From the NCBI RefSeq assembly GCF_022747945.1, contig NZ_JALDST010000001.1, positions 4,650,001 to 4,714,000 on the forward strand: DNA of 64,000 bases, read 5' to 3'. This stretch comes from Micromonospora sp. R77 (GTDB lineage Bacteria; Actinomycetota; Actinomycetes; Mycobacteriales; Micromonosporaceae). The position numbers and the translations under genes are program-made. Each line of letters opens with the position of its first letter. The first letter of the stretch is position 1. Below are positions 36,536 through 53,375 of the stretch, piece by piece. The notes under the pieces are model-generated. The model was given only the letters and a program-made list of their open reading frames with translations. It was not told the DNA's origin and did not search any database.

Positions 36536-36610
36536 GGGCGATTAGCTCAGCGGGAGAGCGCTTCGTTCACACCGAAGAGGTCACTGGTTCGATCCCAGTA
36601 TCGCCCACCA
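36536..36610 (+). tRNA. tRNA-Val (anticodon CAC), CCA encoded
   Basis: A complete cloverleaf: acceptor GGGCGAT/ATCGCCC, D arm GCTC-AGCGGGA-GAGC, anticodon stem CTTCG/CGAAG with loop TTCACAC (anticodon CAC), T arm ACTGG-TTCGATC-CCAGT, discriminator A and encoded CCA. A -10-like TAGAGT is at 36518-36523. Accessory DNA starts right after it. Confidence 0.97.
36566..36579 (+). repeat. Left attachment-site candidate inside tRNA-Val
   Basis: The 14 bases TTCACACCGAAGAG (anticodon loop and 3' stem) recur exactly at 43981-43994 and are followed in both places by N-TCA. The anticodon-to-T-loop part of tRNA genes is a common integrase core site. Confidence 0.55.
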
Positions 36611-37533: not shown

Positions 37534-38229
37534 GTCAACTGTCGGTGCCGCTGCTCCTCCTGTGCACGAGCATCCGCTCGTAGCGATCGGTGCTCTCCCT
37601 GTCGCAGGCCACATGGCGGACGCGTGCCGCACATCAGCCGACGGAGGACCGGAGTGTGCTGTGAGCTGTTGCCGAATTGGCCTGCACTGAATCAAGGCGC
37701 TCCGCGCGGCGCGGGCCGGGGCGCGGCAAACGGCTCCTGCCGAGCCGCCGCCCCGGCGCAAGGGCGCCGGGGCGGAAAATCAGCCGGCCCGAAACCCACG
37801 CCCCGCCCCGCGCATCACCCCTGGGTCAGTGAAGTGACCCGGTGACGAATCCCGAAGAACGGCCAAGACCAGGCGGACGCTCTCTCACCGGTTCCCGACG
37901 ATCCAGAGACCCTCGGAAGGCCAGCGGCCACACGGGTGGACGGAGTTGCCGAACAACCGCGGTTGGCCGCTGGAGTCCCGGGAGGGAAAGGGGTGGAGGT
38001 GGTGGGAGGGGTGTAGGTGAGGGAGGCGCGGGGTTAGAGCTGTGCCTCCGGCGGGGGCCAGACGACTCCAGGATGGAGTTGCCGAACGGTTCCGGTGGGT
38101 GGGTGGTTGAGGTGGCACGCCATCCCGCCAGCCACCGACCCAGGCAAGCCGAGCAGACCAGGGCCAGGGCGACAAGGTCGTACGTCCGGTAGGGCGCTCC
38201 ACCTTGTCACCCTGGCCCTGGCCTGCTCC
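37534..38229. other. Structured non-coding region upstream of the IS110 element
   Basis: No convincing gene. It carries an inverted repeat CCAGCGGCCA/TGGCCGCTGG (37921-37930 and 37974-37983), a 17-base direct repeat GGA(C/T)GGAGTTGCCGAAC (37938-37954 and 38071-38087), a purine-rich tract (about 37980-38030), and a long hairpin at 38151-38228. Confidence 0.6.
38151..38228. repeat. Long inverted repeat (28-base arms)
   Basis: Arms at 38151-38178 and 38201-38228 are complementary with two mismatches and enclose a 22-base loop. Rho-independent terminator, relic of a small element, or part of an RNA are all possible. Confidence 0.7.
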
Positions 38230-39570
38230 ACGGAGTGTGGGTCGGCGGCAGACAGTGAGGATGGTGGGGTGGGTCGCCGGGCTGGTCTGACTCACCGGCA
38301 GACCGACGCTTGCTTGTCCTCATCCCGATTCGTCGGCCGACCCGGTGGCCCCGACATCTACATGTCACCGGCCAGGCGTCGTGACTTGATAGGAGCCTGT
38401 GCGAGAGGCGCCCACCACTGTGTTGTCCGCATCGCCTGACCGGTGACGTGTCCACGTGTTCTCGACGCGACCGAGAAAGGCGGACCTCACCAGCATGGCA
38501 GCGAAGAAGCGATCGGTCATCGGCGGTGTCGACACCCACCGCGACACTCACCACGCGGCGATCATCGACAGCACGGGCGCGCTCCTGGCCGACGCCGAGT
38601 TCCCCGCGAACAGCGACGGCTATGCAGACCTGCTGGCCTGGATGCGCTCGTTCGGCCGGCTGACCGCCGTCGGAGTTGAAGGCACCGGCAGCTACGGCGC
38701 TGGCCTGGCCCGCCATCTGACCAGCAAGAAGGTCATCGTTGTCGAGGTCGACCGGCCCGATCGCAGGACGCGCCGCACCAAGGGCAAGTCCGACCCGATC
38801 GACGCCATCGCCGCCGCCCGGGCGACCCTCGCCGGCACCGCCATGGGCACACCGAAGACCCGCACCGGACCGGTCGAAGCCATCCGCGCCCTGCGAGTAG
38901 CCCGCCAAGGCGCAGTCAAGGCCCGCACGGCAGCGATCAACCAGATGCGCGGCCTGATCGCCGCCGCCCCGGAAAACCTGCGGGCACAGTTGACCAAGCT
39001 CAGCGCTGCCGTCCTGGTCACCCGCTGCGCCGCACTCACCATCGACCCGACCCGGCTCCACGACCCTGAACAGGCCACCGCCGCCGCGCTGTCCGGACTC
39101 GCCCGGCGAGCCAGCATCCTGACCGAGGAGATCACCACCCTGGACCGGCAGCTGGCACCGCTGGTCCGCCAGGCCGCGCCCCGCACCAGCGCCCTGTTCG
39201 GCGTCGGCACCGACGTCGCCGCTCAACTGCTCACCACCGCCGGCGACAACCCCGACCGGCTGCGCTCAGAAGCAGCACTGGCCCACCTCTGCGGTGCCGC
39301 ACCCATCCCCGCCAGCTCAGGACGAGTGCGCCGCCACCGCCTCCACCGCGGAGGCGACCGCGGCGCCAACCACGCCCTGCACACCATCGCGCTGTGCCGC
39401 ATGCGCTACGACCAACGCACCAGGGCCTACCTGCAACGACGCATCACCGAAGGCCTCAGCAAGCAGGAAATCCTGCGCTGCCTGAAGCGCTACATCGTCC
39501 GCGACGTCTACGCGGCCCTGCGGGCCGACTTCGCCGCCCTCACCCCTTGACCTCCATAGGAGCATCGGGA
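38230..39570 (+). mobile_element. IS110-family insertion sequence (ends approximate)
   Basis: An intact IS110 transposase gene is flanked by ATAGGAGC at 38389-38396 and 39556-39563, probably close to the element ends or core sites. IS110 elements lack terminal inverted repeats, so the borders cannot be fixed here. The non-coding stretch before the transposase (38230-38494) is where IS110-group elements encode their bridge RNA. Confidence 0.6.
38495..39550 (+). CDS. IS110-family transposase (DEDD recombinase)
   Basis: A 351-residue transposase starting MAAKKRSVIGGVDTHRDTHH. The RuvC-like domain has the acidic set D13, E62 (VGVEGTGSYG), D100 and D103 (KSDPIDA). The C-terminal domain has a helix-hairpin-helix-like FGVGTDVAAQLL, the serine-bearing AAPIPASSGRVRRH and the HTIALCRMRYDQRT end. 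All parts are present, so it may be active. IS110 enzymes are guided by a bridge RNA encoded in the same element. Confidence 0.95.
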   Translation: MAAKKRSVIGGVDTHRDTHHAAIIDSTGALLADAEFPANSDGYADLLAWMRSFGRLTAVGVEGTGSYGAGLARHLTSKKVIVVEVDRPDRRTRRTKGKSDPIDAIAAARATLAGTAMGTPKTRTGPVEAIRALRVARQGAVKARTAAINQMRGLIAAAPENLRAQLTKLSAAVLVTRCAALTIDPTRLHDPEQATAAALSGLARRASILTEEITTLDRQLAPLVRQAAPRTSALFGVGTDVAAQLLTTAGDNPDRLRSEAALAHLCGAAPIPASSGRVRRHRLHRGGDRGANHALHTIALCRMRYDQRTRAYLQRRITEGLSKQEILRCLKRYIVRDVYAALRADFAALTP

Positions 39571-39686: not shown

Positions 39687-42677
39687 TCAGCTGACAGCTG
39701 CTTCGATGCCCTCGCTGACGTCGCGCCACGCTGTGTCCGGGTTTTCCCAGTTCATTACCGCCTTGCCGTCAGTTGGGAGTGCCTGCAACTCCTTCAATGC
39801 CGGCTCATGGAGCCAATTGCAGTCTCTCACGATCACCGGGACGACCTTGCATTCGCCTGCCGTTCGCCTGCGTAACGCTTCCCGCATCTCCCTATCACTG
39901 CAGTAGTCGGATGCGAGGAAGTCTGCACTTATCAGTAGTATTACCAGATCAGCTTCCTGCAAGTTGCTATCGATTGCGTCTCGCCAGCCATCTCCCGCCC
40001 CAATGCGTCGGTCGCTCCACACGTCGATCAATCCGGACCTGCGGAGTACCTTCAGGTGACTCTCAAGAGAGTCTTTGTGTCGCTCGTCTTTGTGGCTATA
40101 GCTGATGAAGACGCGTGCACCTCTGCTGGTCGCTTCGACCGGGCCCTTGCGCAAGCTTTCTCTTTTTCGTGCCCTAAGGTCAACGCCATTCAGTAGTTCG
40201 GCTACATTTATATCGAAAAACTCGCCATCCATATACTCCTGGAGCATCGTCATTCCATTTCGCTCGGCGGCCACCAACTTTTCATACTGCACCGTCAGTT
40301 GGCGGCGAGCAATGACGACGGGAACGTATGCTTCTACTTTGAATAAAAAGCTTCGGTGAATATGCTCGAAGTCCGACCGGATGACTGCGAGGAGACGACG
40401 CCTTCCGGCCGTCGGGCCATCTACGGCAATGTGGATCACTCGATCTGTTGGTTCTGCTTTGATTAAGGCCTTGTTTCCTTCCCACGAGAGCACGCAGCCA
40501 CTGCGCCACTTTGGTTGGTCGGTTGACAGTACATGTGAGCGAACGATAAACCTAGGCACCAGTCCCTCTGGTAGCACCGGGTATCTATACTGGAAGTGTA
40601 GAGCTCCCGCCTCCTTCACATGCCGTTCGACATCGACAGGCTGCTGCTTAGGAAGTAGTTCTGCAACCAGAAAGCGATCTGGGTGGTCGTGATAGGGAAA
40701 ACACAGCTCGAATTTCCTCATCAGTTCAAGAAGGAAAGCGTGCCGCTCGGCGGGGTATTGATTCGGGTCAAGAATTTCAGTCAGATCTGCCGCTTCAATC
40801 TCGCCTCTTTTCTCTGAAGCTAGACGAGAGTTTAGGATGGCGTAGATTCCTTCAGTTACCCAGTGCGGATTTAAAACATGGGTATCGCGGAGGCGTGGAT
40901 CATCTCTATAATTGAGGGCAATGCCTAGAAGGTGCAGATATTCTGCAAGCTTTTCCTGCTCGGCTTGGTCAACTTCCCCAAATTTTCGACACAATTGGCG
41001 AAACGACTCGAAGCTTAAGTAATTCTCGCGCATTGTGGATAGCTGATTCTTGATTTCGAACCATGCTGTGGGAAACTTGACCCTCAAGTCAGGAAGTTCG
41101 GAGGTTTCCTGCACGATCCGGGCTCTCAAGCGGTCGATTCCTAGGCCCTCGTCGCCAACCGCGCAATCTGACCTGACGAACGCACGGATCGCGGGGAATC
41201 TCTGGCGAAGGCCTACCTCATCAAGTTCGAATGGGTCCTTTGATATTTGATTCATGGCCACGATTACGGGTGAACCGGGAGCGAAGCTCTCCATCAACCG
41301 TAGCCAGTATTCAGCGTCTGCATCCGCGCTTCCAGACCGTCCTGAGAGCGCCAAGACATATAGGCTTCGGCTGGTCAAAAAGAACTGATGGGTTGCATGC
41401 ATAATTTCTTGCCCGCCAAAATCCCATACATTAAGGCGCGCCTTCTGTTGGTCGGGAAGTGTAACATCCCAGGTCGTTACCTGTATCCCCTCTGTTCTGA
41501 GCTCTCCGGACTCAAAGTGGTTGTGAACTAATCGGTTAACCAGCGAGGTTTTGCCGACACCACCCCAGCCGAGCAAAATCAGCTTCGCCTCGTTGAGTGG
41601 TTTGCCGGACTCCGCTGTCCGAAAGTAATAGTCGAGAATTCTTTTGGCGGACCCGTCCCATCCGCCCTCCGGGAACTGACCGAGAATTTCCTCCGGCAGT
41701 TGAAGTAGTGGGTGGCCGTGCAACAATAATACTTCCAGGCCAGGCAGATTTTTGAGAGCCGCGGGGAGAGAGGCGAGGCTTTCTAATCTTACGTCTTGCT
41801 CGCTTGGAGTACGGATAGCGCGCACGCTGCGACTTGGAGTTTCCTCCCACTCCACCGGGGCATCGTCGCTATCGTCTTCCCGTATCAAATAAGCGCCGTA
41901 TCCTGCTTGACTGAAGAAGTCAAGAATCTTAAGCCTCTGCCAAGAGGTGACTACCTCCGGGACTTGATCGAATCGGTTAAATCCTAGGCGAACGTGGCGC
42001 AGTGGAAGACCCGCCATCGTGTCGGGTAGGTCTGTTAGGAAATTCCGTTCGAGTGATAGGCTTCTCAGTCTCTTAAGAGCGCCGAATGACGGAGGAATTG
42101 CGGTGAGATTGTTCCGGGCGAGGTTCAGCTGTATTAGATTAGGCAGGCGGTCCCATTTGTCGGGTAACACATGAAGGTTATTCGCCCAAAGCTGAAGTGT
42201 CTGCAAATGCTCTAAGTCGAAGAGCCAGTTAGGGATCTGGCCGAAATGGTTGTCCCCGATCGCCAAGTGGCGGAGTTCCTTCAGGTGGCCGATAGAAGGC
42301 GGAAGGTGGCAATTGGAGCCCGCACTGAACTTTTGAAGGCCCGTCAGTTCCCCTACCTGGGGAGGAATGAACAAATCATCATTGCTCCATAGGTCTAGAA
42401 CTCGGAGATTCTTTAGGTTGCCAATTCGTGGCGAGACGGAAGTAATTCGGTTGCTGGTTAGCTTGAGAATCGTCAGTTGTTCAAGGCTATATACCTCATC
42501 CGGAATCTCTTCGATCTGCGCGAAAGAGAGATCTAGGACACCGGTTTCTGCGGAATTTTGGATGGCTTCTTCGACTTCTTCTAACGACCAACCGGTATCT
42601 AGAACGTCGTCATCTTCATCTAGGTCATCATCATCGTGGTACAGGTCGTCATCATCGAACAACGCTTCTTGATTCAA
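39687..42677 (-). CDS. LRR-Roc-COR-TIR (ROCO-TIR) protein, probable immune receptor-like
   Basis: A 996-residue multidomain protein. Order: Asp-rich tail (1-28), leucine-rich repeats (about 45-330), Roc GTPase with Walker A GWGGVGKT (370-377), G3 DFGGQ (419-423) and MNQISKD (475-481), COR (about 545-790), and TIR (about 853-985) with VFISYSHKD and the putative catalytic Glu in YCSDRE (E930). Bacterial TIR domains of this kind often cleave NAD+ on infection. LRR sensing, GTPase switching and TIR output suggest an abortive-infection receptor, by inference. Base composition is far more AT-rich than its surroundings, so it was probably acquired. Monocistronic; no partner gene next to it. Confidence 0.92.
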   Translation of the reverse strand: MNQEALFDDDDLYHDDDDLDEDDDVLDTGWSLEEVEEAIQNSAETGVLDLSFAQIEEIPDEVYSLEQLTILKLTSNRITSVSPRIGNLKNLRVLDLWSNDDLFIPPQVGELTGLQKFSAGSNCHLPPSIGHLKELRHLAIGDNHFGQIPNWLFDLEHLQTLQLWANNLHVLPDKWDRLPNLIQLNLARNNLTAIPPSFGALKRLRSLSLERNFLTDLPDTMAGLPLRHVRLGFNRFDQVPEVVTSWQRLKILDFFSQAGYGAYLIREDDSDDAPVEWEETPSRSVRAIRTPSEQDVRLESLASLPAALKNLPGLEVLLLHGHPLLQLPEEILGQFPEGGWDGSAKRILDYYFRTAESGKPLNEAKLILLGWGGVGKTSLVNRLVHNHFESGELRTEGIQVTTWDVTLPDQQKARLNVWDFGGQEIMHATHQFFLTSRSLYVLALSGRSGSADADAEYWLRLMESFAPGSPVIVAMNQISKDPFELDEVGLRQRFPAIRAFVRSDCAVGDEGLGIDRLRARIVQETSELPDLRVKFPTAWFEIKNQLSTMRENYLSFESFRQLCRKFGEVDQAEQEKLAEYLHLLGIALNYRDDPRLRDTHVLNPHWVTEGIYAILNSRLASEKRGEIEAADLTEILDPNQYPAERHAFLLELMRKFELCFPYHDHPDRFLVAELLPKQQPVDVERHVKEAGALHFQYRYPVLPEGLVPRFIVRSHVLSTDQPKWRSGCVLSWEGNKALIKAEPTDRVIHIAVDGPTAGRRRLLAVIRSDFEHIHRSFLFKVEAYVPVVIARRQLTVQYEKLVAAERNGMTMLQEYMDGEFFDINVAELLNGVDLRARKRESLRKGPVEATSRGARVFISYSHKDERHKDSLESHLKVLRRSGLIDVWSDRRIGAGDGWRDAIDSNLQEADLVILLISADFLASDYCSDREMREALRRRTAGECKVVPVIVRDCNWLHEPALKELQALPTDGKAVMNWENPDTAWRDVSEGIEAAVS

Positions 42678-42779
42678 TCCGAGCCTCCCACAGCATTAAC
42701 TTCATCGGACTGTCGTTCAAAGTCGAGAGCCGCTTAGTGTTTGAACGCGAGCGCTACCGGACTCACTGCAACAGACTCG

Positions 42780-43980: not shown

Positions 43981-43994
43981 TTCACACCGAAGAG
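43981..43994 (+). repeat. Right attachment-site candidate (partial tRNA-Val copy)
   Basis: TTCACACCGAAGAG is identical to the tRNA-Val anticodon loop and 3' stem. It continues N-TCA-NN-GG-TCGATC, which loosely follows the tRNA variable and T loops. No other tRNA parts are present, so it is not a tRNA gene. Confidence 0.55.
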
Positions 43995-44068
43995 ATCAAA
44001 GGTCGATCTTCCGTTTCCCTGATTTCGAGAGGTTGGTGCGGGAAGTCGTTGGCCTTGATACTGGGCGG

Positions 44069-44620
44069 ATGGCGGAGCTGACTCGGTGGACGGTCCATGG
44101 CGAGCGGATGGTGGACGACACCCGACGGGCGCGGTTGAGCATCGCGTCTGTCGAGCTGCCAGACGGGGTCCGGTTCGAGCAGTACGTGATCCGGGCACCC
44201 CGCTCGGCCATGGTCGCCGTCCTCGATGACCGGCAGCGCCTGCTCCTGATGCGGCGTCACCGCTTCGTGTTCGACCGCTGGGTCTGGGAACTGCCCGGTG
44301 GCTACGTCGACGATCAGGAGGAGCCGGCGGAGTGCGCGGTCCGTGAGGTCGAGGAGGAGACCGGCTGGCGGCCGGGCGAAGTGGAGCCCTTGTTGACGTT
44401 CCAGCCATGGGTGGGCACGGCCGACGCGGAAAATCTGCTGTTCCTCTCGCGCAGCGCGAAGCACATCGGAGCGCCGACGGATGTCAACGAGGCTGAGCGG
44501 GTCGCCTGGATCCCGCTGAACGAGGCCCGAGAGCTGGTTAGCAGAGGCGAGATCGTCGGCGCGGGAACAGTGATCGCCGTGCTGGAGTTGGTCGCCCGGG
44601 AGGCGCGCGGCGAGCTGTAG
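44069..44620 (+). CDS. NUDIX hydrolase
   Basis: A 183-residue pyrophosphohydrolase. The NUDIX box is complete: GGYVDDQEEPAECAVREVEE followed by ETGW, with the metal-binding REVEEE. QYVIRAPRSAMVAVLDDRQR and the FDRWVWELPGG approach resemble ADP-ribose pyrophosphatase-like members. Start 44069 (MAELTRWTVHG) fits the domain; an upstream TTG at 44033 would extend it. It is convergent with the XRE regulator gene (4 bp between stops), an arrangement often seen in Streptomyces. Confidence 0.87.
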   Translation: MAELTRWTVHGERMVDDTRRARLSIASVELPDGVRFEQYVIRAPRSAMVAVLDDRQRLLLMRRHRFVFDRWVWELPGGYVDDQEEPAECAVREVEEETGWRPGEVEPLLTFQPWVGTADAENLLFLSRSAKHIGAPTDVNEAERVAWIPLNEARELVSRGEIVGAGTVIAVLELVAREARGEL

Positions 44621-44624
44621 CGAG

Positions 44625-46067
44625 TCAGCGCTGAGTACCCAAGGCAGCGTCGACTCGCGCGATGAACTGTCGTACGACAGGTCGCTTCCGGTGCGGTGCG
44701 AGCTCGGCTTGCAGGTCGCGTACGTAGCGGACGGCCCGGGTGGAGCGGAGTTGGGCGGTGAGCGTTAGGGCTTCCGCGCCGATCGCACAGCCGCGTTCGG
44801 GCTCGCCGCGCTGGACCTGGACGGAGGCGAGCAACGCCAGGTTGAAGGCCTTGCCGCGGATGTAGCGCTCGTCCATGTCGAGGGACCGGCGGGCGAAGCG
44901 TTCGGCGGGCAACGCCTTGCCCAGGGCGTGGAAGCAGTGGGCGAACTTCGCGGACAGGTAAGCCTCGTCGAAGTAGCCCAGCCACTGCGGGTTGCCGCTG
45001 CGGTCGGCCCGGTCGAGGGTCTGCTCGGCTTGGTGCAGGGCAGCCGCGCACGCCTTCTCGTCGCGGGCGGTCGCGTGGGCGTGCGCTTCCATCACGTACG
45101 CCTCGGCGGTCAGGACGGCCAAACCGGCGCGTCGGGCGGTTTGCCGCGCGGCGCGGGCCAGGTCGATGCCGGTCGCTGCCTGACCCAGGTAGGTGGCCTG
45201 GTGGCTCATCGCGGCCAGAATCTCCGCCCCCAGTCCGGCATCGCCAGCGGCGCGGGCCAGGTCCAGGGCAAGGGTGAGGTGGCGCTGGGCGATGCCGTGC
45301 TCCGCCAGGTCGTACGCCTGCCAGCCGGCGAGCTGGGTCAGCTCGGCTGTGGCGCTGAGCAGGCTGCGGCCCGTCGCCGGGTCGTATCGGCCGTCGGTCA
45401 GGAGCGGGGTGACCTCCTGGTGGAGATAGCGCGCGACGGCGTCACGGGCGTGACCGCCGCCGTACTGGTTGTCCAACCGTCGCCAGGTCGAGCACAGCTC
45501 GCGGATGGTGTCGATGTCGGGTTGGCCGACGGTGCGTCGGCCGGACCTGCTGACGGGCTCCCCGGTAGGTGCGGTGAACCAGCGCAGCGCGGGGAGGGTG
45601 TAGGCCGCCGAAGCGAACGCCGTCTGGCGGATCAGTTCTCTGCGGTTCACGTCGCCTTCCCAGAGCCGTACTGCGGCGCGGAGATCGTCGCGCCAGCATC
45701 GGTCGACCGGGGTGTCACTCTGCCGCTGCTGGCCGGTGTGGACCATGTCGTGATGACATGGTCGGCGGGTAGGCGCCAGACCGAGCGTCATCCTCGACTC
45801 GTCGGGCATGTCGAGTCCGTCGGCTATCCGCTCCAGCACCTCTATTGAGGTGACCTTTCGACCGGCCATGACCCGGCTGACGTATCCCTGCTCTAGTCCG
45901 ACCGCAGCCCCGATACGGGTCTGACTCGCGCCGGTCAGCCGGCTGAGCGTTCGGAAGAGCCCGCCGATGTCCCGCCTGCTCAACGACTCGCAGACGACTT
46001 TGTCGGACCACACGTCCGAAGGGATCCGCAGCGGATCGAGCAGCACGCCAGCTCCCGGAGTGGTCAT
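44625..46067 (-). CDS. XRE-family regulator with C-terminal TPR-like region
   Basis: A 480-residue protein. The N-terminal helix-turn-helix is in LFRTLSRLTGASQTRIGAAV and GLEQGYVSRVMAGRKVTSIE (about 37-76). From about 150 the protein is all helical with repeats such as AYDLAEHGIAQRHLTLALDL and AVLTAEAYVMEAHAHATARD, like the sensor half of Streptomyces regulators of this kind. Two CATGTC palindromes, one inside the gene (45741-45763) and one upstream (46128-46148), are likely binding sites. It is divergent from four tiny genes. Confidence 0.87.
   Translation of the reverse strand: MTTPGAGVLLDPLRIPSDVWSDKVVCESLSRRDIGGLFRTLSRLTGASQTRIGAAVGLEQGYVSRVMAGRKVTSIEVLERIADGLDMPDESRMTLGLAPTRRPCHHDMVHTGQQRQSDTPVDRCWRDDLRAAVRLWEGDVNRRELIRQTAFASAAYTLPALRWFTAPTGEPVSRSGRRTVGQPDIDTIRELCSTWRRLDNQYGGGHARDAVARYLHQEVTPLLTDGRYDPATGRSLLSATAELTQLAGWQAYDLAEHGIAQRHLTLALDLARAAGDAGLGAEILAAMSHQATYLGQAATGIDLARAARQTARRAGLAVLTAEAYVMEAHAHATARDEKACAAALHQAEQTLDRADRSGNPQWLGYFDEAYLSAKFAHCFHALGKALPAERFARRSLDMDERYIRGKAFNLALLASVQVQRGEPERGCAIGAEALTLTAQLRSTRAVRYVRDLQAELAPHRKRPVVRQFIARVDAALGTQR
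45741..45763. promoter_or_regulatory. Palindrome within the XRE gene
   Basis: GACCATGTC (45741-45749) and GACATGGTC (45755-45763) are perfect 9-base arms around GTGAT. It shares the CATGTC...GACATG core with the upstream site. Confidence 0.45.
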
Positions 46068-47782: not shown

Positions 47783-50764
47783 TCAATTGACCACCGCCCC
47801 GCCGTCGCGGAGATAGAGGAGTTGGGTGAAGAACAGAAACAGCTGCTCGATCTCCGGGGCGAGTTGCAGATGATCATGGGCGCCGAGGCCGTCGATCGGG
47901 GAGAGCAGTCGAGTGGCCTGTCGGAGGACGTTGTCCTCGGTCTCCGCAGCGGCGCGCCGGAACACCTCACTGGACAGCCCGGACCGGTACGCCTCACCGA
48001 GCATGCCGCGGCCCTCATAGGCCTGCAGGATGTGGATGATCGCGGCGTTGGTCTCCCGGATGCCCGGGGTGCCCGGCTTTGCGAACGGCTCCTCGGACGT
48101 ATGGTGCACGCCGCGCACCACCTGCTGGCGGTCGGCTTCCAACGCGCTCCGCCGGCCACCCGGTCGGATGCCGCCGTGATCCCTGCTGGCCAGGGCGACG
48201 AGCAGACGCGCAGGCTCGGTCAGGCCGCCGATCTCGTTCCAGTACCCGCCGTGCTGGTGCTGAACGATGTACGGAAGCTCTGCGATGTCGTTGTCGGTGG
48301 GACCGACGACGAGCCCCCACGGCTCCTTGTCGAGCAACCGGCGGCCCAACCGGTCGGCCAGCACCCGACGGATCAGTCCGGAGCGCTCGGTGTTCAGCGC
48401 CGCCCGCAGGGTGTGTCGGCTTCTGTCCGGTGCCCCGGTGAGCAGGTATCCGTAGCGGCGGTACGGATCGCCGGAGCGCAGGGCGCGGGGCAGTGATCCG
48501 GTTCGTTGACCGTCCGGAAGCTGTCTGCTGTGCAACCACGCCGAGGCCTGGGTCCAGAGCGACCTGCCGATCTGGCCGAGCCTGCTGAGCGGAGAGAAGA
48601 CCTCATTCCGGAAGAAGCGATTCCGCGCTATTCGCTCCGCCTCTGCGAGGGAGGCCGGCACGAGCGCCCGGCTTCGGTGCAGCCCGGCGAGCACGCTTCC
48701 CGCCAGCATCACCACCGCCACCGCGGACAGCGTCCAACCCAGCCAGCTGAGCCATGGCACCGTCCTTCCCAGCGGGAGCCGCAGGGCGGCGATCCCGGCG
48801 ATCGCCAGCAGCGCGGCCGCGCACGCGTTCAGCAGCATCGTGTTGGTGAGGTGCACCCGCTCGAGCCGGTTCAGTTCGCCCAACTGTTCGTCGACCCGGT
48901 CCCGGCGCGCTGCGGCGATCCGCTGCGCCGTCGCTTCCCGCTCCCCGGGCCAGCGACGGACCAGTTCCTGGAAGCGTCGATCTGCCTCGTCCGCGCGGTA
49001 GGACTCGTTCAGCTCCCTGACGCCCCGCGTCAGCTGGTCGGCGCTCTGCGTCCGGCTCCACCCCAGGGCGGCGAGTTCCCCGTACAGGTCGGACAGGTCC
49101 GGCTCGTCGGCCTCGAGTCGCTTGTGTCTGGACCCGAGGAGGTCACGCAGCGCCCGGTCGAGGGTGTTGCTGTCACGGTAGACGAACACCTCGTCGTAGA
49201 CCCGCCGCAAGAGGCTCTGCACCTCTGAGCTGGCGTAGCCGATCACGATCAGCACGTGCCGCTCCGCCGGCCCCGCGTCACCTCCCGACATGCCGGCCTT
49301 GACCCGCGCCAGGAGATCCTCCTCGGCGCGTTCGGCCTCGGCGAGATAGAACATCGCCTCACTGAGCCGGACCATCAACCGCGTCGCTCCGGGCAGGTTC
49401 ACCGTGAACTGGAAGCTGGCCTGCAGATTGATGGTGAGCTGACCCAACCCCCAGAGCACCCGACGTACCGACATCTCCACGGTCGCCCGATCGAGGACGA
49501 GCAGGCTGTCCGGGATGTTCTCGGGGCCGATGCACTCCAGCGGCGGAGCGAAGTCCTGAAACGACTGCCAGGCGAGCTGCAACAGTGCCCGCACGTTGCC
49601 GCCACTTGTGATCAACAGCGTCCGCACCGCGGCGTCCGTGAACGGCCACGCCGACCGGTAGAAGCCCTGTTCGGCCGGGTCGAGCACCGTGAGCACGTAC
49701 ATGCCGAGCAGTTCGAAGGCCTGACTCGGCTGCAGTGGAAAGCAGGGGACGTCGTTGGACCCGAACCGCTGGCGCAGGTCGGCCGGCAAGAGCGACCAGG
49801 TCTCCTCGCTGGCGGCGACGATCAGCATGCCGCCGATATCGGGTATCGACTCGACCAGTGAGTGGAGGAAGCCGCAACTCTCCACCACCAGGCTGCCCGC
49901 CGGACCGGCCAGGAACTTCTCCGCCTGGTCGAGGATGAGGACCAGCGGTCGGTTCGCCCGGTCGCAGAGCAGGGCCAGCAACTGGAGCCCGTAGCGGCAC
50001 TGGTCGGCCGTCTCGAGCGGACCGGAGATGCCCAGCCGGCGCAGCTCCGAATCGGGTACGGGGCGGGCCTGCAGCCAGGCGAAGGCGGCGTCCTGAAGAT
50101 CGGGCTCCAGCAGATAGATGAGTGCCCGGTGGAAGTTGGACTCGTCCCGCACCACGTTCTGCAGGCGATCAGCCTGCGCCTGGAGCAGGAGGCCACGCTC
50201 GAGGAGGTGCTTGTTGAACATGTCGAGCAGGATCGACGGATTCTTCTGGAAGGCAGCACTGTCGCGCAGCGGCAACGGCCCGCCGTGACTCAGTGAGCCG
50301 AGGAACTTCAGTGCGACGTCGGTGAGATACGAGAGCGACACCTGCGCCATGAGCAGCCGGTAGGCATGCACGAAGTTCGGACTGCTGAGCTTCACGTACA
50401 GCGGGAAGAGCGCGTCGTCGGCGGGCCCGACGGAAGTATGTTCGGTGGCCACCTGTCCGACGGCGGCCCGGATGGCATGGGTCTTGCCGGAGCCGTGCTC
50501 ACCGTGCACGAAGACCGCCTGACCCTCACGTCGGCCGGCCGTCTTCGGCGCCAGTTGGAAGCGGGCGACGAACGTGGTGGTACGCCGTACCGCATCGAGT
50601 TGGAGCGTCGGCGTGTGCTGCTGCCAGGACCGGTACGAGTCGAGGAACGGTCCCTCCTCCACGGCGGTGGTGGCCTGTGCCGGGAACGGGTTGAAGGCGG
50701 GGATCGATGTGGCCACGCTGCGTTCACTCTTTTCAGTCACCGGGTGGGCGCCCGTGGAATTCAT
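47783..50764 (-). CDS. AAA-type P-loop ATPase with two membrane spans, last gene of NTPase operon
   Basis: A 993-residue protein. AAA-like ATPase with Walker A GEHGSGKT (88-95), Walker B LVLILDQAEKF (274-284, D279) and a sensor-1-like GGMLIVAASEE. A middle helical region follows, including VIGYASSEVQSLLRRVYDEV. Two membrane spans lie at about 642-662 and 670-694, then about 300 residues of unknown fold. It overlaps the preceding P-loop gene by 32 bp. The architecture (cytosolic NTPase, membrane hairpin) suggests a membrane-linked effector or sensor; no family name can be given. Anti-phage function is only a hypothesis. Confidence 0.88.
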   Translation of the reverse strand: MNSTGAHPVTEKSERSVATSIPAFNPFPAQATTAVEEGPFLDSYRSWQQHTPTLQLDAVRRTTTFVARFQLAPKTAGRREGQAVFVHGEHGSGKTHAIRAAVGQVATEHTSVGPADDALFPLYVKLSSPNFVHAYRLLMAQVSLSYLTDVALKFLGSLSHGGPLPLRDSAAFQKNPSILLDMFNKHLLERGLLLQAQADRLQNVVRDESNFHRALIYLLEPDLQDAAFAWLQARPVPDSELRRLGISGPLETADQCRYGLQLLALLCDRANRPLVLILDQAEKFLAGPAGSLVVESCGFLHSLVESIPDIGGMLIVAASEETWSLLPADLRQRFGSNDVPCFPLQPSQAFELLGMYVLTVLDPAEQGFYRSAWPFTDAAVRTLLITSGGNVRALLQLAWQSFQDFAPPLECIGPENIPDSLLVLDRATVEMSVRRVLWGLGQLTINLQASFQFTVNLPGATRLMVRLSEAMFYLAEAERAEEDLLARVKAGMSGGDAGPAERHVLIVIGYASSEVQSLLRRVYDEVFVYRDSNTLDRALRDLLGSRHKRLEADEPDLSDLYGELAALGWSRTQSADQLTRGVRELNESYRADEADRRFQELVRRWPGEREATAQRIAAARRDRVDEQLGELNRLERVHLTNTMLLNACAAALLAIAGIAALRLPLGRTVPWLSWLGWTLSAVAVVMLAGSVLAGLHRSRALVPASLAEAERIARNRFFRNEVFSPLSRLGQIGRSLWTQASAWLHSRQLPDGQRTGSLPRALRSGDPYRRYGYLLTGAPDRSRHTLRAALNTERSGLIRRVLADRLGRRLLDKEPWGLVVGPTDNDIAELPYIVQHQHGGYWNEIGGLTEPARLLVALASRDHGGIRPGGRRSALEADRQQVVRGVHHTSEEPFAKPGTPGIRETNAAIIHILQAYEGRGMLGEAYRSGLSSEVFRRAAAETEDNVLRQATRLLSPIDGLGAHDHLQLAPEIEQLFLFFTQLLYLRDGGAVVN

Positions 50765-51737
50765 TCGCCATCTCGACCTGACGAACCATCGTCTCGATCC
50801 ATCTGCCGGGAAGCGACAATTCCCCGGCCTGCGGCCACCGCTCGGTTCCCTCGTATGCGATCAGCCGCCAGTGCAGTAGGAAGCCCAGCCATCCGAGCAC
50901 CCGGGCGACCGGGCTGCTGCGGCTGGTGAAGGTGCGGCGCAGGCCCTCCAGATCGAACGGACACTCCACCTCGGGGGCGGCGATCTGCCAGCGGTTGCTG
51001 GCCAACAATTCGACACTGTCGCCGGACAGCGCCGGAAGCGTGACGCTTCGCGCCCATCGCTGCCAACGTTTGCGTTGGGCCAGGCGCTCGGCAGAGGCGG
51101 TGTCCGCATTGCCCTCGTAGTGGTCACGGGTGACGACGACAGCCATCTGCACGTTCTCGAACACCACGGCGAGGGTGTCCATGAAGGCGTCCTCCTGGAC
51201 GCCATCGATCAGCAGTCCGATGTGCACGGGCGGCTTGACGATGTTTTCCGCATAGTTGTTGAGGTATTCGGCGCGGCTCTGCAGGTCGAGGTCCTCCAAG
51301 CCCGGTCCGCCGCCGTCGGGAACCTCGCGCATCAGGGAATCGCGGTGGTTCGCCCAGTTTCCGTTACGGATGACGGTGTTCCGGATCGCCTTTATGAGCC
51401 GGTTGGTGCGTGACCGGCTGTCGTGGTCGATGTCGTTGACCGTCACCACATGGAACGTCTCGCCGACACCCCGGTGTTCGGCGTACTGGTGCAGGATCCT
51501 GCGCGCCAGGGTGGTGCGGCCGGTGCCCTCGCGGCCCGACACGAGAAATGCGGCAGGCTGCTTCTCGTCCACCCGTTGCCGAATGTAGCCGTCGATGTCG
51601 TCGAGGCTGGGGAAGCCGTCGAAATCCAGCAGGTAGCACCGGTGGTCCGCGCGTCGTGCGTCCAGTTCCCGATGGATGTACGGGTTGCCGTCGGTCAGGT
51701 TGTAGAGGCTGTAGTCGGCGTCGTGGAAGTCGCTCAT
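50733..51737 (-). CDS. P-loop NTPase-fold protein with Walker A Lys replaced by Arg
   Basis: A 334-residue protein. The P-loop reads GREGTGRTT (68-76), with Arg at the position of the catalytic Lys; Walker B is IGLLIDGVQED. Such a change usually removes or weakens ATP hydrolysis, so it may be a regulatory or adaptor partner. The stop of the KAP gene and its ATG overlap (TGATG at 51735-51739), and its end overlaps the big ATPase gene by 32 bp, so the three proteins are probably made in fixed ratio and act together. Confidence 0.85.
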   Translation of the reverse strand: MSDFHDADYSLYNLTDGNPYIHRELDARRADHRCYLLDFDGFPSLDDIDGYIRQRVDEKQPAAFLVSGREGTGRTTLARRILHQYAEHRGVGETFHVVTVNDIDHDSRSRTNRLIKAIRNTVIRNGNWANHRDSLMREVPDGGGPGLEDLDLQSRAEYLNNYAENIVKPPVHIGLLIDGVQEDAFMDTLAVVFENVQMAVVVTRDHYEGNADTASAERLAQRKRWQRWARSVTLPALSGDSVELLASNRWQIAAPEVECPFDLEGLRRTFTSRSSPVARVLGWLGFLLHWRLIAYEGTERWPQAGELSLPGRWIETMVRQVEMANEFHGRPPGD

Positions 51738-52996
51738 CAGGGCTGGCCGCCGAAGAGCGTCAGGTGGTCGGCCAGCCGGGCCTGCTCGGAACCGAAGTCG
51801 GACGTGGTGAAGAGCGGCTCGAGGTAGGCCTGACGCCGGTAGTGCGGCTCGATCGCGCGGTACAGGCCGGGGCCCCGCTCCCGGAAGTGGGTACGCAGTG
51901 CCCCCTCGCTGGCCTCGAGTTTGCCGGCGTAGATGAGCTCCAGAATGACCAGGATGTCCGGGTCGGCCAGGACGGCGGAGAAGAGTCTCGGTGTCTGCAC
52001 CCGCAGCGTGGTGAGCCGTACCAGCAGGTCGCGGTTGAGGCCGGCCAGCCCGGGCGTCCGGGCCACCATCGAGGTGGTGAACGCCAACAGGTTCAGCACC
52101 CTCTTGATCTTGCGAGGATTCGGCAGCAGGATCTTTTCCAGCAGATCACCGTGCTCGTCGAACAGTTGCGGATCGGCCAGTTCGCTCAACAGCGTCCGGA
52201 CTCCGCGGTTGTCGAGCGGCAGCAGGTAGAGCGGCAACTGGATCATTTTCTCCAGATATTCGTCACCGAGGTCGACCAGGTCTTCCTGCGCGAATCCGAA
52301 ATCGCGGTACTTCATGGCGACCGCGCGATCGACCAGTTCCTTGGAGAGCGCCATGAGGACGAAGACTCCGGGCACGTCCAGGAACAGCTTGATCGACTCG
52401 AGGAGGTCGATGACCTGATCCGGCTCGCAGCGGTCCAGGTCGTCGATGAAGATGACGGCGCGGATACCCTGGTTGTCCAGTCCGGCCAGCTCGTCCCGAA
52501 GTACCGTGCGCAGGTTGCTCAGCTCACTGCCGACGTCGTTGCGGGCCTTTGCGTACTGGGCCGACGCCGCATCCAGCTTGTCCACCGTGACCCGGCCGGC
52601 AGTGACGGCGCTCAGCAACGTATCTGCGGCCAAGGTGCCGATGATCGACGTTATCTTGAGCGCGGCGGACTGGAACCGCTTGGCACGATCGGCTGTCATG
52701 GCGTCGCGCAGGGCGCGCAACAACGGTTGGATGAGGTTCGGTTCCCGGCGGTGTACCCAGGGATTGAAGTGCACCGGCAGGAACGCGTCCTCGTTGCGCT
52801 CGCGCAGCCGTTCGTCCACCATCGTCAGCACGCTGGACTTTCCGCTGCCCCACGCCCCCAGCACTCCGATCGTGAACGGGGTGTGGCTGTCGGGGCTGGC
52901 CAACAGGGACACCAGCGGATCCACGTAGCGCGAGAACTGCAGCCGATCCTGTCCACATAACGCCGGCGCGTCGGACAGTACAGCGAGGCTCGTCAT
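51737..52996 (-). CDS. KAP-family P-loop NTPase, first gene of NTPase operon
   Basis: A 419-residue KAP NTPase. AAGGAG lies before ATG 52996. Walker A is GAWGSGKSS (47-55); Walker B is VIFIDDLDRCEP (181-192), whose DDLDRC is the KAP hallmark. A short hydrophobic stretch (ITSIIGTLAADTLLSAVTAG, about 115-134) replaces the usual membrane insertion between the two motifs. KAP proteins occur in phage exclusion (PifA of plasmid F) and in eukaryotic membrane scaffolds. Leads the operon with the Arg-P-loop protein and the membrane ATPase. Confidence 0.9.
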   Translation of the reverse strand: MTSLAVLSDAPALCGQDRLQFSRYVDPLVSLLASPDSHTPFTIGVLGAWGSGKSSVLTMVDERLRERNEDAFLPVHFNPWVHRREPNLIQPLLRALRDAMTADRAKRFQSAALKITSIIGTLAADTLLSAVTAGRVTVDKLDAASAQYAKARNDVGSELSNLRTVLRDELAGLDNQGIRAVIFIDDLDRCEPDQVIDLLESIKLFLDVPGVFVLMALSKELVDRAVAMKYRDFGFAQEDLVDLGDEYLEKMIQLPLYLLPLDNRGVRTLLSELADPQLFDEHGDLLEKILLPNPRKIKRVLNLLAFTTSMVARTPGLAGLNRDLLVRLTTLRVQTPRLFSAVLADPDILVILELIYAGKLEASEGALRTHFRERGPGLYRAIEPHYRRQAYLEPLFTTSDFGSEQARLADHLTLFGGQP

Positions 52997-53375
52997 GGTG
53001 GTCGACTCCTTAGCGCCGGCCCGCCCGACCGGCCTAGATCGGCGAGGCCTTTTTACCAGCACTCCATGCCGCCCGCTGACCCTAGGTGATGATCAATCTC
53101 GATGGATGCGCCATTCGGTCAGGATGCTGACCCAATCCGGCGTGGGCAAGCCTCTTGGTCGTCCCAGATCCCTGGCGGTTGGCCCGCCGGCAAATCGGCC
53201 GAACGACGAGCGGGGCAAACATCCCGCGATTCCGCCGAGGCCGCGCCGGTCAACCGGGGCACGGTAGATATCTCATCCAGCTCACCGAAGCCGCGTTCCG
53301 CAGGTATCAGACGACCGGGTCCGGACGGGGGTGGTGAACAGTGACGGTGGTCGGGGGGTCCTAGGCTCCAGGGCC
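52997..53375. promoter_or_regulatory. Divergent promoter region of the NTPase operon
   Basis: About 380 bp without a supported gene, somewhat lower in GC than the flanks around 53050-53110. It must hold the promoters of the KAP operon (minus) and the lipoprotein-like gene (plus); no clear -35/-10 pair was seen. Confidence 0.4.

Follow-up and report, generated by a model that had tools for sequence, protein, structure and literature searches.

An LRR-Roc-COR-TIR protein of Micromonospora sp. R77: a predicted one-gene defence receptor with an altered Roc nucleotide pocket

A reverse-strand gene for an LRR-Roc-COR-TIR protein

The window analysed here, a stretch of 64,000 nucleotides from Micromonospora sp. 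R77 (NCBI RefSeq assembly GCF_022747945.1, contig NZ_JALDST010000001.1, positions 4,650,001 to 4,714,000), contains a reverse-strand gene (39687..42677) that its open reading frame (ORF) and Pfam matches identify as encoding a 996-amino-acid protein with leucine-rich repeats (LRR), a Roc domain, a two-part COR domain and a C-terminal TIR domain, which we interpret as a candidate intracellular defence receptor. The gene starts with TTG, and a Shine-Dalgarno-like GGGAGG (42684..42689) was seen by eye in the printed sequence six bases 5' of that codon. Encoded in order on the same strand are an LRR region of repeats plus linker (residues 31-335; 41673..42587), delimited by Pfam and orthologue comparison, Roc (residues 356-530; 41088..41612; Pfam and a fold match), COR-A (536-675; 40653..41072) and COR-B (692-831; 40185..40604), both from Pfam, and the TIR domain (853-996; 39690..40121; Pfam and fold comparison). 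The Pfam E-values are 7e-22 for LRR_8, 2e-26 for Roc (residues 365-478), 2e-40 for COR-A, 1e-28 for COR-B and 6e-18 for TIR_2 (residues 856-967); all five exceed their cut-offs, and this check with hidden Markov models bears out the architecture proposed by an earlier, sequence-only reading of the window. The order is that of a ROCO protein, with COR straight after Roc both in Pfam and in the fold match to 4wnr and 3dpu.

That reading had also remarked that the gene is more AT-rich than its surroundings, as indeed it is, with 52.7% GC against 70.8% for the window. The dip spans about 39.75 to 43 kb, and values of 0.61-0.64 extend as far as 44 kb. Gene GC falls below that of the rest of its own locus in 21 of 25 ROCO-TIR loci, indicating that AT-richness is a trend of the family. 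The protein has a single whole-protein match in its own genome.

TIR is a domain type that often destroys NAD. The putative catalytic glutamate suggested from the motif YCSDRE (residues 925-930) stood up well on alignment, as all 115 aligned sequences, without exception, have Glu930 (39888..39890, reverse strand). The predicted TIR fold lies near NADase TIRs in a fold comparison whose VIA-align rows re-examine Foldseek matches only, so that families absent there stay possible.

The base pocket of the Roc switch

The Roc domain had been described as an intact GTPase, and this holds for the P-loop GWGGVGKT (residues 370-377; 41547..41570, reverse strand) and the switch II motif DFGGQ (419-423), but not for the motifs of the base pocket. 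The alignment places NQIS at the G4 position (476-479; 41241..41252, reverse strand), with loss of the guanine-specificity aspartate of NKxD, a motif usual in ROCO proteins though not demanded by the family definition, and the G5 loop reads SDCA (503-506; 41160..41171, reverse strand), with Asp504 where most other ROCOs have serine. The motif of a canonical GTP-specific switch is missing from this Roc.

The same pattern recurs in one group of relatives among the 85 rows of a Roc-COR tree, which was built by a quick method with SH-aLRT support only and has several long branches, L072 above all. All 85 rows, with the window protein among them, keep the P-loop and switch II residues (G370..GK[TS] and D419..G422). 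The NKxD aspartate is found in only one of 31 rows with a DYC-type TIR (L002) versus 48 of 54 other ROCO rows, made up of 10 of the 11 that bear another kind of TIR and 38 of the 43 that have none. Residue 504 is aspartate in 30 of 30 DYC rows; among the other 54 it is serine in 51 and aspartate in three (L027, L030 and L072). Taken jointly, Asp504 without Asp479 characterises 29 of 30 DYC rows, and Asp479 with Ser504 characterises 47 of 54 others. A 115-row alignment has 3 Asp, 60 Lys and 10 Arg at the G4 aspartate position, and Asp in 114 rows and Glu in one at residue 504. All but two of the 31 DYC rows (L014 and L021) fall in one clade, suggesting that the G4/G5 change arose in one or a few events rather than many independent ones, and this clade covers at least 11 phyla.

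Given this unusual pocket, the window protein may not be using GTP as its relatives do. By analogy, it is possible, if somewhat doubtful, that Roc in the DYC-type clade came to switch with a different nucleotide, ATP/ADP being the likeliest. The analogy is with SpoIVA, a TRAFAC NTPase which, in the parts of PMC7952092 that describe it, is an ATPase with both an NSxR G4 and a G5 acidic residue; there too, Era with NKxD changed to NSxR plus a G5 glutamate hydrolyses ATP, and not specifically GTP. Like the DYC ROCOs, SpoIVA combines a changed G4 with an acidic G5 residue, but it is a cytoskeletal sporulation ATPase, and several details argue against the comparison. The SpoIVA acidic residue lies two past the G5 serine, whereas in DYC ROCOs the serine itself becomes aspartate; its NSxR has lost the lysine that DYC ROCOs mostly keep (NKxK is commonest, NQIS in the window); putting back the G4 aspartate alone altered SpoIVA activity little, as that part of PMC7952092 reports; and a relocated aspartate could still read guanine.

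NLRs use an ATP-type switch. If Roc in the DYC clade does read adenine, ROCO receptors would have converged on the switch type of NLR/STAND receptors, and NAD+ killing could be tied to the adenine-nucleotide state of the infected cell. The reciprocal G4/G5 change predicts a loss of guanine preference, and would offer a natural experiment in how a Ras-like switch changes base. One literature search returned, among its top-ranked matches, no ROCO paper describing loss of the G4 aspartate together with a G5 aspartate.

A tRNA-Val hotspot and the distribution of the family

The gene lies 3.1 kb beyond a tRNA-Val(cac) gene (36536..36610, forward strand) that alignments to relatives place at the left edge of a variable region. 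The flank left of the tRNA is kept in 14 of 14 relatives tested, and their alignments end within 3 bases of its 3' end in 11 and within 15 bases in all 14, which identifies the LRR-Roc-COR-TIR gene as accessory DNA. Adjoining it is an IS110-family transposase gene (38456..39550, forward strand; Pfam), and beyond it is a 14-base exact copy of part of the tRNA (43981..43994, forward strand), a possible att remnant. Four relatives (G114, G071, G159 and G078) have 43-47-base tRNA fragments downstream on the same strand, within 25 kb; in the R77 genome, the listed fragments of this length all lie at distances above 1.19 Mb. An integrase-borne island with clear ends was considered and is not shown, the tRNA copy at 43981 being short, and Pfam found no integrase among the nine ORFs scanned past the tRNA.

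Across the 14 relatives, two of them with less than 4 kb of sequence, the 98 ORFs within 12 kb past the tRNA match 38 PADLOC families at 1e-5, including DrmA (6e-197), mREase_II (1e-182) and TmtA (4e-51), and in Pfam they include four phage integrases and one pSAM2-type RepSA. On the upstream side (97 ORFs, 11 loci) there are 16 PADLOC families, mostly UvrD-helicase (GajB) models, the best at 1e-29. The region past the tRNA is thus a mobile hotspot, with defence genes among its cargo in some cases.

A NUDIX gene (44033-44620, forward strand) is also accessory, with a 1e-40 match in 16 of 41; an HTH_31 regulator gene (44625-46067, reverse strand) adjoins it, and in relatives G071 and G127 a NUDIX gene likewise lies within 10 kb downstream of the tRNA. 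Three adjacent P-loop NTPase genes at 47783-53062 on the reverse strand, possibly another conflict system in the variable region, encode a 993-residue AAA_16-like protein weakly similar to BrxD (7e-4), a 334-residue AAA_16/NB-ARC-like protein and a KAP NTPase (1e-41). Upstream of the transposase gene there is a long inverted repeat (38150-38229), where Rfam microRNA matches, far under their gathering scores, were rejected as fitting chance matches to a long hairpin.

A homologue search scored 7994 candidates, of which 3906 matched. Among the best 120 of these, the closest besides the window are proteins of Micromonospora chersina and M. parva (69-70% identity), followed by mostly metagenomic proteins (52-69%), P. 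toevensis (53%) and cyanobacterial proteins (about 43-47%). Most of the 120 match LRR, Roc, COR and TIR models; four (P0025, P0029, P0034 and P0064) have no LRR model in the Pfam list, the first three bearing TPR models instead with core motifs kept, and P0034 also NB-ARC. Within the genus, 8 of 160 genomes match at E<=1e-30, R77 included; the other seven matches are partial, within residues 143-776 at 30-35% identity, and have no TIR in the printed stretch past the core. In Micromonosporaceae, 5 of 354 genomes match at 1e-80, again including R77, and one of the others is full-length. In the tree, four Micromonosporaceae TIR proteins form one clade (support 100) within an eight-row set (96) that also holds cyanobacteria and a Methylococcaceae, and the Micromonosporaceae ROCO L055 is far away, a pattern that fits transfer between phyla. 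Carriage by phages or plasmids was not borne out: a search of 50,697 phage records at 1e-10 gave three matches, with LRR residues alone covered at the best place in each, and none of the seven matches at 1e-50 among 72,556 plasmids covers more than 80% of the query. In the genome of locus L023 (G381, contig C135), a pair of COR-A genes is separated by about 3 kb, one gene on each strand.

A predicted defence receptor, its alternatives and known relatives

Two features of the family recall receptors. Identity to three close orthologues is 52-56% in the LRR (residues 31-254), compared with 80-88% in Roc, 81-83% in COR-A, 72-77% in COR-B and 77-80% in TIR, which makes the LRR the fastest-diverging of the domains, as in the class described by Kaur et al. 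2021 (PMC8195603). Positive selection on the concave face of the repeats was considered but is not claimed, exposed positions being 44.6% identical versus 49.9% for the rest of the repeat, too small a difference. The second feature is exchange of the C-terminal tails. Past COR-B, 79 ROCO loci carry TIR_2 in 36 cases, EAD7 in 6, MCU in 3, CHAT in 2, and PNP, EAD1 and others in one each. Two Stenomitos loci (L043 and L044) are 93.2% identical over Roc-COR (439/471) and 66.4% before it, with tails that are 28.8% identical globally and by eye belong to different TIR types; in an equally close pair (L048 and L051, 92.7%) the tail is kept at 87.4% identity. Swapping of effector tails on near-identical Roc-COR cores fits what is expected of receptors.

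MCU-channel, CHAT-protease and nucleoside-phosphorylase tails thus occur on LRR-Roc-COR proteins, by Pfam tally rather than per locus. By eye, the tail of L069 is phosphorylase-like and those of L049 and L050 are nuclease-like. The short tails of L027, L061, L062, L071, L073 and L081 contain repeated GD-x-N-like motifs, which presumably resemble amyloid signalling motifs.

Based on its domains, predicted fold and conserved residues, together with LRR divergence, effector exchange and accessory location, the protein is probably a stand-alone, horizontally acquired receptor in which an LRR-triggered, Roc-COR-gated TIR NADase serves abortive defence; that it senses a ligand, switches, cleaves NAD+ and protects against phage is predicted from these features. 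The LRR would read a ligand that is derived from, or altered by, an invader, altering the nucleotide that Roc-COR holds and how it dimerises, and so bringing the C-terminal TIRs together; the gathered TIRs would then cleave NAD+ or produce cyclic ADP-ribose as a signal, and growth of the infected cell would cease. If correct, a single bacterial gene would unite an LRR sensor, an LRRK2-type switch and a TIR killer, providing a simple model of the link between sensing and output in ROCO proteins.

Fold and neighbourhood comparisons are less telling. Scaffold TIRs score nearly as high as NADase TIRs in the fold comparison. A survey of homologues for defence islands was not decisive. The 110 ORFs beside 12 ROCO-TIR loci yielded, at E<=1e-10, 24 PADLOC families (type I and IIG restriction-modification enzymes, a ThsB-like TIR, IetA and PbeA, but also SspA and DndA, which resemble housekeeping IscS), versus 54 families for 106 control ORFs of the same contigs. 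Of these 54, the 25 displayed are chiefly single-member PD-T4-6 models, the pattern to be expected from one kinase; the raw count is higher in the control, and no enrichment is claimed. Neighbourhood support for a defence role is weak. Among 323 ORFs at 25 loci plus the window, the widest shared cluster occurs at six loci, 0.1-7.2 kb from the gene, and no neighbour is common to more than six of the 26.

The TIR might instead be a signalling cyclase rather than a killer, its product being an isomer of cyclic ADP-ribose that acts on an unlinked effector, in the manner of ThsB in Thoeris; its top PADLOC match is a ThsB model (PDLC00420, 1.9e-46). We consider this unlikely, given that a Pfam scan of ten neighbours found no ThsA-like gene, in a genome not searched for ThsA, and that the family has no widely shared neighbour. 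It seems improbable that the protein pairs a ROCO switch with a TIR scaffold for housekeeping or developmental signalling in actinomycete differentiation; scaffold TIRs do exist, and roles in development and chemotaxis belong to the ROCOs of Dictyostelium and to plant Tornado1 (as covered in part of PMC4104024), but the few matches in genus and family, the position at a tRNA hotspot and the invariance of Glu930 all point elsewhere. A decaying or silent passenger left by IS110 or a tRNA-targeting element, which foreign composition, the adjoining transposase, the possible att remnant and the degenerate G4 motif might suggest, is very improbable for a gene with 996 open codons, a good Shine-Dalgarno sequence and retained Glu930, P-loop and switch II, whose G4 change is common to relatives in other phyla and is thus not decay of the window copy.

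The defence-receptor idea is already in print for the class, there too as a prediction: the relevant section of PMC8195603 presents prokaryotic LRR-AP-GTPase-COR proteins as predicted counter-invader systems with exchangeable C-terminal domains of at least 24 kinds, TIR among them (class of Figure 6D). The window protein shares the LRR, Roc/AP-GTPase, COR and variable effector of that class. In the same section the switch is taken to be a GTPase, and nothing is said of an NKxD aspartate lost together with the gain of a G5 aspartate; the altered pocket of the TIR-bearing clade is the part we did not find in print. Among top-ranked literature matches, with most subscription papers out of scope, no experiments on the part of a bacterial ROCO in defence were found.

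The nearest solved relatives by sequence are Chlorobium tepidum Roco (6e-80; 6hlu, 8r4b) and the Roc-COR chain of Methanosarcina barkeri Roco2 (4wnr, 7e-78), both of which leave the TIR part unmatched and have NKID at G4 versus NQIS here. In Thoeris, ThsB is paired with ThsA, whereas the window TIR has sensor and switch in the same polypeptide. The NADase domains of AbTir, SPARTA TIR-APAZ and plant TIR-NLRs are 13-23% identical to the window TIR, which has Y-x4-E versus W-x3-E in AbTir and is joined to a ROCO switch versus a short pAgo in SPARTA or NB-ARC in plant TIR-NLRs. Bacterial TIR-STAND/NLR proteins use a STAND ATPase switch where the window protein has Roc-COR, and in its build of sensor repeats, nucleotide switch and end domain the protein resembles the immune receptors of animals or plants.
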